Translations under genes and position numbers: made by a program | Source of the DNA: Candidatus Omnitrophota bacterium | Lineage (GTDB): Bacteria > Ratteibacteria > UBA8468 > B48-G9 > DTJG01 | Direction: 5' to 3' | NCBI GenBank assembly: GCA_023484085.1 | Contig: JAMDAS010000010.1 | Span: 1-40,738, forward strand | DNA length: 40,738 nucleotides | Notes under the pieces: model-generated | Database searches by the model: none | Seen by the model: the letters and a program-made list of their open reading frames with translations, nothing else | Told to the model about the DNA's origin: nothing | Shown: piece by piece, positions 35,077 through 37,000 of the stretch | How positions within the stretch are numbered: the first letter of the stretch is position 1 | Layout of the letters: each line of letters begins with the position of its first letter

Positions 35077-35152
35077 ATAAGTTTGGATTGTCTTTGAATC
35101 TTTATTTGAAAAAACGTAGTTATAAAGATGAGAAGAGCAATCCAGAACTTAT
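35077..35152. repeat. Dispersed 76-bp palindromic element, copy B
   Basis: A stand-alone inner element in the same orientation as copy A (ATAAGTTTGGATTGTCTTTG ... GAGCAATCCAGAACTTAT). The inner stem is ATCTTTAT/ATAAAGAT. The last bases of the element supply the TAA stop codon (35151-35149) of the membrane protein gene on the minus strand. It lies upstream of porC. Confidence 0.85.
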
Positions 35153-35874
35153 CTCTCATTTGATTCAGTATAAAAATAAAAGTATGTTTTTATAAATCCG
35201 ACCTCTCCAAAACCTAAAATCAACGCTTTCAAAAACCACCAACCCCAAGTATTAAAATTATACCCTTTAAAAGAAAAATTAACAAAAAATATTACAATCC
35301 CGAATAAAAAACTTATTACAATCACGCTTCCAAGATTATATTTTAAAAAATTAAAACTTTTTTTCAGACTGGAAAGTACAGGACAGTCTTCAAGAAAGAT
35401 AATAAGCGGGGCAAAAAGCAAAAGACAAAAAAGAAATAGAGGAAAAGCAAGCCATAATATAAAAATAACGTATAGAATATTCTGAAAAGAAAGCGGGATA
35501 TATTTTAAACTTGCCACAAGAACGCTGCCAAGGAGAAAAATCAACAATAGCAGCAGAACAAGAAAAACCTTAACCACAAGAAATCTTCCAAAAAAGTGGC
35601 TCCCATAATGAAAAAATTTCTTCCACTCAAAATTTATGGATGAAATCATATCCTTTAATGAACCATATACGGCTGAGGTTAAATAATTTTCAACAAGAAA
35701 CAAAAAGAAAAACAAAAAGAAAATTTTTTCGTACTTTACTGTTATCTTCTGTGGTGTTACCTGCGGTATATTTTTTGTTATTAAAAATACCAGCAGTGTC
35801 CAGAAAAAAATCACACCCACCATTTTAAGTGAATTATTGTCAAACCTGAATCCTTTCTTTAATTTATTCATCAT
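35149..35874 (-). CDS. Hypothetical polytopic membrane protein
   Basis: 241 residues, very hydrophobic, with about five to six membrane helices (around 17-34, 48-66, 95-118, 130-155, 182-205, 213-230) and Phe-rich segments. It shows the general layout of DUF975-like or glycerophosphoryl-type membrane proteins but no diagnostic motif, so no family is assigned. It starts 11 bp inside the proS 3' end, so it is translationally coupled. The stop codon comes from the repeat element, so the original C-terminus may have been replaced when the element arrived. Confidence 0.75.
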   Translation of the reverse strand: MMNKLKKGFRFDNNSLKMVGVIFFWTLLVFLITKNIPQVTPQKITVKYEKIFFLFFFLFLVENYLTSAVYGSLKDMISSINFEWKKFFHYGSHFFGRFLVVKVFLVLLLLLIFLLGSVLVASLKYIPLSFQNILYVIFILWLAFPLFLFCLLLFAPLIIFLEDCPVLSSLKKSFNFLKYNLGSVIVISFLFGIVIFFVNFSFKGYNFNTWGWWFLKALILGFGEVGFIKTYFYFYTESNER

Positions 35875-37000
35875 GATTGTAAATATCTTTTATAAAATGT
35901 CCTGCATTTTCTATCGGTACATCATGAAACTGGTTGTTTTTCCTGAGCTTTACCTCAACCTTGCCTTCTTTCAGCTTTCTGCCAAAAATCAACCATATTG
36001 GTATACCAAGAAGGTCCCCATCCGCAAACTTAATACCCGCGGATTCATCCCTGTCATCCATTAAAACATCCCAGCCTGCTTTTTGCAGGTTTTCATATAC
36101 CTTTTCCGCTGTTTCCTCTCCACTTTTTAGTGGAAGTAAAAGAACCTGGTATGGCGCTACAGAAAAAGGCCAGATAATTCCTTTATCATCATAATTTCCT
36201 TCAATTACTGCAGATACAATCCTGCTTACACCTATCCCATAACAGCCCATTACAAGTGGTTTTTCTTTTCCCTCCTTATCACTAAAAACCGCTTTCATCT
36301 TTTCACTGTATTCTGTTCCTAATTTAAAAATGTGACCAACCTCAAGCTCCGCGCATTGTCCCTCTGCTACGAACTCCTCAGAAAATTTTCCGCCGATAAC
36401 CCCTGAATCCGCCTGGTGAATAGCTGTTTTAAGTCCACACCTCTTAAATATTCTGACGTATGCATCCTTCATTTTAAAGTAGGACGTTTCAGCTGACTTA
36501 TCGTCTGCATCAAAGCTATATGCATCCTTCATCAAAAATTCTCTTGACCTTATAATCCCGAATCTTGGTCTTATCTCATCCCTGTATTTTGTCTGGATTT
36601 GATAAAGAAGCAGTGGAATCTGTTTCCAGCTTTTTACATATTTTCTGACAATGTCCGTGATTACCTCTTCATGTGTTGGTCCTAAAAGTATGCACCTGTC
36701 TCTTCTATCCTGGAACGTAATCATATCTTTTCCCATCTTTCCAAAGCGGCCTGTCTCCTCCCATAAAGATGCAGGCTGTAATGATGGCATCAGAATTTCA
36801 AGACCGCCTGCATTATTCATCTCTTCCCTGATAATATTTGATACTTTTTGAAGAACTTTTAATCCTGTCGGGAGAAAGGAATAAACCCCTGAAATAAGCT
36901 TGTCAATCATACCCGCCTGGTGCATAAGCCTCTGGCTGATAGTTTCAGCATCAGCGGGTGGTTCCCTGAACGTCCGGATAAAAGATTGTGTCCATTTCAT
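35864..37000 (-). CDS. proS: Prolyl-tRNA synthetase lacking the INS editing domain
   Basis: A 378-residue class II synthetase. Motif 2 lies in YRDEIRPRFGIIRSREFLMKDAYSFD (about 140-164) and motif 3 in VMGCYGIGVSRIVSAVIE (about 250-267); the anticodon-binding domain fills the C-terminus. Bacterial-type ProRS is usually about 565-570 residues with a roughly 180-residue editing (INS) domain between motifs 2 and 3. Here that place (about 212-218) has only a few residues: FVAEGQCAELEVGHIFKLG. Sequence flanking the gap is otherwise well conserved, so this is a genuine compact form, not a frameshift. Mischarged Ala-tRNA-Pro would need a free-standing deacylase, not seen in this window. Confidence 0.95.
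   Translation of the reverse strand: MKWTQSFIRTFREPPADAETISQRLMHQAGMIDKLISGVYSFLPTGLKVLQKVSNIIREEMNNAGGLEILMPSLQPASLWEETGRFGKMGKDMITFQDRRDRCILLGPTHEEVITDIVRKYVKSWKQIPLLLYQIQTKYRDEIRPRFGIIRSREFLMKDAYSFDADDKSAETSYFKMKDAYVRIFKRCGLKTAIHQADSGVIGGKFSEEFVAEGQCAELEVGHIFKLGTEYSEKMKAVFSDKEGKEKPLVMGCYGIGVSRIVSAVIEGNYDDKGIIWPFSVAPYQVLLLPLKSGEETAEKVYENLQKAGWDVLMDDRDESAGIKFADGDLLGIPIWLIFGRKLKEGKVEVKLRKNNQFHDVPIENAGHFIKDIYNHDE

Follow-up and report, generated by a model that had tools for sequence, protein, structure and literature searches.

A bacterial-type prolyl-tRNA synthetase without the INS editing domain across an uncultured bacterial lineage

Results

The window (the whole 40,738-nt stretch of DNA that was analyzed) encodes on its minus strand a prolyl-tRNA synthetase (ProRS). 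Its gene, proS, has 378 codons and runs from an ATG start through a stop codon at the coordinates that the preliminary description had given for the reading frame (Table 1). Profile searches assigned the protein to the P-type, or bacterial, enzymes: the P-type model TIGR00409 scored 512.1 bits over a cut-off of 306.7, matching in two stretches of which the first covered residues 1-216, and the archaeal/eukaryotic-type model TIGR00408 gave only 137.8 bits against a cut-off of 437. Two further models fell short, narrowly so for the full-length ProRS that includes the INS domain (NF006625; 548 vs 558 bits), and also for the mini-INS ProRS (NF008979; 487.5 vs 550 bits). Besides the class II catalytic core and the anticodon-binding domain, no further Pfam domain was found in the 378 residues up to an E-value of 1. 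Six residues that we take to belong to motifs 2 and 3 (R140, E142, G252, G255, G257 and R260) were invariant in a 20-row alignment, in agreement with the earlier reading that both motifs are intact.

Table 1. Coordinates of proS, its parts and other reading frames in the window.
Feature	Coordinates	Strand	Basis
proS, INS-less P-type ProRS (378 aa)	35864..37000	minus	ORF, profile, phmmer
Class II catalytic core PF00587, residues 95-268	36197..36718	minus	Pfam, 107.6 bits
17-residue linker DSGVIGG..GHIFKLG, residues 205-221, at the INS site of other P-type ProRS	36338..36388	minus	phmmer, motif
Predicted turn EGQCAE, residues 213-218, between strands 207-212 and 219-228	36347..36364	minus	model
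Anticodon-binding domain PF03129 (HGTP), residues 285-372	35885..36148	minus	Pfam, 62.6 bits
241-aa predicted protein	35149..35874	minus	
Pair of short adjacent ORFs of 112 and 142 aa	6730..7496	plus	

Downstream of proS lies a gene for a 241-aa protein, whose ATG overlaps the 3' end of proS, 10 bases upstream of the last base of the proS stop codon. Homologues of this protein (27-71% identity) directly follow proS at 16 of 29 loci in the group of related genomes described below, the window included, and the overlap between the two genes is often 4 bases. Pfam yielded only DUF7847, at 27.8 bits and below the cut-off of 28.7; the hydrophobic sequence suggests a membrane protein. Elsewhere in the window, two small adjoining ORFs precede an ATPase-like ORF and presumably resemble an antitoxin and a PIN-domain toxin.

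Alignment with the 579-aa ProRS of P. aeruginosa (5ucm) located what is missing. By phmmer, residues 2-232 of the window ProRS corresponded to residues 10-238 of 5ucm and residues 219-371 to residues 415-574, which left ~180 residues of 5ucm without a counterpart at the junction. The preliminary description had noted the absence of an INS domain of about this size near residues 212-218, and the alignment, the 17-residue linker and the turn in the structural model all bear this out. It had also raised the prospect that the domain lies elsewhere in the protein; the INS superfamily profile PF04073 found no match in the 378 residues, and the loss therefore stands. The sequence-based identification of an INS-less P-type ProRS is thus confirmed.

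We defined linker length as the residues between the DSGxIGG and GHIFKLG motifs. It was 17 in all 27 full-length proteins of the group (23 by motif, and by eye in L016, L021, L023 and L024), which are 58-88% identical to the window ProRS. Of the 15 short-linker rows (SAR86 and other Pseudomonadota), 11 were measurable by motif and had linkers of 57-64 residues, and the linker spanned 199-217 residues in 30 of the 45 INS rows; a thirty-first row measured by motif (L184) was set aside, as a motif match inside INS gave it a spurious length of 84.

An AlphaFold2 model of the window ProRS, built on the 20-row alignment, had a mean pLDDT of 85.6 and a pTM of 0.87, with values below 50 in the motif 2 loop (140-156) and of ~67 at the junction (mean of blocks 201-220). 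In the model, six residues link the two flanking strands at the INS site. The best Foldseek matches were bacterial ProRS structures (TM-score up to 0.92), and structural alignment with the best solved match, a bacterial ProRS, covered 371 residues at 2.0 Å (Z 44.7).

The enzyme was compared with the known ProRS types. The mini-INS enzymes (Rhodopseudomonas palustris 2i4l, Caulobacter crescentus; NF008979) are likewise P-type without a working INS, and it was this type that gave the model its best Foldseek TM-score; however, they keep the longer linker described above, an insert of ~60 residues that the window ProRS does not have. C. crescentus uses the deacylase ProXp-ala, according to an excerpt of PMC10164551, whereas no ProXp-ala was found for the window ProRS. 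The INS-containing enzymes (Enterococcus faecalis 2j3l, P. aeruginosa 5ucm) carry the ~180-residue domain that is absent here, and their core and anticodon-binding domain align over 371-372 residues at 2.0-2.2 Å with Z ~44 (best two entry families). The archaeal/eukaryotic-type enzymes (Thermus thermophilus 1h4s, M. jannaschii 1nj8) also have no insert between motifs 2 and 3; they are similar in core fold (Z 33-35) but distant in sequence, as the TIGR00408 score indicates.

The group was represented by 35 genomes, a count that is identical whether it is defined as a class or as a phylum. A proS match crossed the junction in 29 of the 35, and all 29 were without INS. Matches in two genomes (G031 and G034) ended before or began after the junction, and two (G008 and G021) gave no proS match. 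Two members of one family of the same order (f3; G011 and G013, rows L191 and L192) have an archaeal-type ProRS in place of the INS-less bacterial type; that of G011 scored above the family cut-off, and that of G013, a partial frame of 403 bits, just below it. The window genome is a draft, so that an assembly deletion, as the preliminary description had allowed, or a frameshift might have taken INS out of this one copy; nothing else favors such an error, and a junction identical in 27 of 27 full-length proteins is the product of neither chance nor misassembly. We give this explanation almost no credence and regard it as ruled out for practical purposes. Judged by these sequences, INS loss is a trait of the whole group and not of a single genome.

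The window genome (G000; 62.6% complete) and a second genome (G001; 90% complete) each contained one ProRS-strength match, and the profile search revealed no second ProRS in either. ProRSx, a ProRS dedicated to mistranslation, is defined in the consulted part of a review as an extra enzyme that accompanies the canonical ProRS (PMC11415595), a pairing found in neither genome at these levels of completeness. The window enzyme is probably the only ProRS of its cell, and the ordinary one of a bacterium from an uncultured lineage.

If editing no longer occurs in cis, it might be supplied in trans by a protein of the INS family. PF04073, which matched 12 of 14 named control genomes, had no match in the 906 kb of the 62.6%-complete window genome, so that the YbaK/ProXp search proposed earlier yielded no INS-family protein there. 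It was also absent from 28 of the 35 group genomes. A stand-alone PF04073 protein, in frames of 158-200 aa, was present in seven (L031-L037). Among the 16 group genomes with a completeness of 90% or more and a contamination of no more than 5%, three have such a protein; of the 13 without PF04073, G011 has the archaeal-type ProRS and the other 12 have the INS-less P-type enzyme. PF04073 was likewise not found in G013, which also has an archaeal-type ProRS. Because the window genus is represented by two genomes, 62.6% and 90% complete, the case against trans-editing is weaker for the genus than for the group.

The one stand-alone protein that was compared with solved structures matched the uncharacterised entry PDB 3op6 at 194 bits, YbaK (2dxa) at 21.5 bits, 1vki, which we take to be a ProXp-ala, at 19.2 bits and 2cx5 at 18.8 bits, and had no match to 5vxb up to an E-value of 1. 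The last two structures are identified as ProXp-x (2CX5) and ProXp-ala (5VXB) in a passage of PMC11295145. Two of the seven proteins scored 53.6 and 44.2 bits against the NCBIfam YbaK model, with a cut-off of 153.25. On these comparisons, the seven exceptions appear to carry a PF04073 protein of uncharacterised type.

Could a deacylase acting in trans, either unrelated to INS or an INS-family protein missed in draft genomes, clear Ala-tRNA-Pro? OB-fold Ala-tRNA deacylases without INS homology occur in T. brucei and yeast, according to a portion of PMC12021450, and such eukaryotic enzymes leave room for a non-INS editor; the incompleteness of the window genome and the stand-alone protein of the seven genomes also speak for it. 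Against it stand the twelve genomes of 90% completeness or more in which PF04073 is absent, and the distance of the tested PF04073 proteins from YbaK, with no close ProXp-ala structure match. We consider a trans-acting deacylase unlikely.

Genomes of other phyla (121 in total, grouped by the strength of their ProRS match) provided a reference. A strong match to the window ProRS was seen in 84, of which 81 had PF04073, and many of the matches in other phyla fell inside ProRS-length frames. Three strong-match genomes were without PF04073 (G063, G099 and G152). In two of them the P-type ProRS frame is short as well, at 427 aa in G063 (L168) and 439 aa in G099 (L169), so that the double absence also occurs outside the group. 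PF04073 was also missing from 22 of 32 weak-match genomes, which would be archaeal-type by score, so that absence of the INS family is not rare among such bacteria. Five genomes had no ProRS match at the threshold, one of which has PF04073.

The editing domain shared by AlaRS and ThrRS has a different distribution. PF07973 matched at least once in 34 of the 35 group genomes and at least twice in 25; the single match in the window genome lies in a 594-aa frame. On the two domains searched for (PF04073 and PF07973), the loss of editing would thus affect ProRS alone. A 224-aa frame in one group genome (G018:C17:7199-7330) also matched PF07973, separately from the AlaRS- and ThrRS-length matches of the same genome, and is perhaps a stand-alone AlaX-like protein.

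By eye, C1:G72 and A73 are kept in all 15 tRNA-Pro genes of ten relatives. According to a section of PMC3973320, both bacterial ProRS and ProXp-ala make use of these elements. An altered tRNA-Pro identity that might compensate for lost editing was not seen in these 15 genes. No tRNA-Pro was among the 22 tRNA matches of the incomplete window genome, and a relaxed tRNA-Pro pattern had no match in G000 or G012.

Nor did sequence comparison point convincingly to a retuned active site. W125, E208, L219 and G268 were the only compared columns that separated the group from the INS enzymes. E208 is shared by 9 of the 15 short-linker rows; its association test had four independent pairs, too few to reach significance.

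The history of the domain was reconstructed from a tree of 68 ProRS proteins over 364 columns, excluding the junction. The tree sampled 15 of 27 group rows, 8 of 15 short-linker rows and all 45 INS rows; the alignment and tree leave out five partial proteins (L028, L029, L038, L170 and L189) and L030, which is the same gene as L119. The 15 group rows were monophyletic (support 100/96), and five Pseudomonadota mini-INS rows clustered with five INS-containing Pseudomonadota (99/98). This topology requires six INS-state changes. An AU test did not reject a joint clade of the group with the five mini-INS rows (p 0.162). INS was likely lost independently in the group, apart from the Pseudomonadota mini-INS enzymes. 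By the time of the group's common ancestor, or earlier, the domain would have been reduced to a short turn, and the core and the anticodon-binding domain would have remained.

Discussion

Bacterial ProRS without INS are already known as a kind. What is new here is full excision to below mini-INS size, throughout a phylum-level group in which most genomes are also without a PF04073 protein. We recognised no report of an INS-less ProRS from this lineage in the literature searched, whose coverage omits most subscription papers.

The explanation that we favor, at somewhat better than even odds, is that INS was lost in an ancestor and that accuracy now comes mainly from the synthetic active site, with some residual error. 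Such an enzyme would charge tRNA-Pro normally, like other class II synthetases. Given the known function of INS, it would be unable to hydrolyze Ala-tRNA-Pro in cis; the preliminary description had proposed that this hydrolysis is lost, and PF04073 and the linker establish the loss of the cis domain while the loss of the activity follows from INS function by inference. As no ProXp-ala was found, rejection of alanine would rest mainly on the synthetic site, and some residual replacement of proline by alanine would be tolerated. E. coli ProRS, by the figures in part of PMC10164551, rejects alanine 23,000-fold in vitro and effectively 1,200-fold in the cell. The review cited above states, in the part consulted, that bacterial-type ProRS without an editing domain can be more selective for their substrate (PMC11415595), which favors synthetic-site accuracy over frequent error or a hidden deacylase.

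It is also conceivable that the lineage tolerates frequent alanine at proline codons, editing having been lost and the synthetic site not improved. Most of the group has neither INS nor a PF04073 protein, the active site shows no clear change, and the same review lists synthetases that are deficient in editing by nature and introduce errors into the proteome. Yet it places such losses mainly in intracellular or parasitic microbes (PMC11415595, in part), and PF07973 persists in 34 of 35 genomes, which on the domains searched for limits the loss to ProRS. Frequent error of this sort seems improbable to us.

The preliminary description had anticipated two outcomes, a free-standing deacylase of the ProXp-ala type or tolerance of mistranslation. 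The first mostly fails, with PF04073 missing from 28 of 35 genomes; tolerated error may still occur. The pair was also incomplete, for a more selective synthetic site, reported for other INS-less bacterial ProRS (excerpt of PMC11415595), would be a third outcome. A broader proposition is possible, though we doubt it: that most members of this phylum-level lineage are without any Ala-tRNA-Pro proofreading, INS being gone from the ancestor and ProXp-ala absent, so that proline codons are read with measurable alanine, or accuracy stems from an undescribed synthetic site or a non-INS deacylase.

At 378 residues, the enzyme is a compact P-type ProRS for structural work. The need for Ala-tRNA-Pro proofreading has mostly been argued from organisms that possess INS or ProXp-ala, or from host-dwellers. 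Here, a lineage without INS, and mostly without an INS-family deacylase, keeps the AlaRS/ThrRS-type editing domain in nearly all genomes. The group may thus serve as a natural test of whether the synthetic site of ProRS can by itself be accurate enough.
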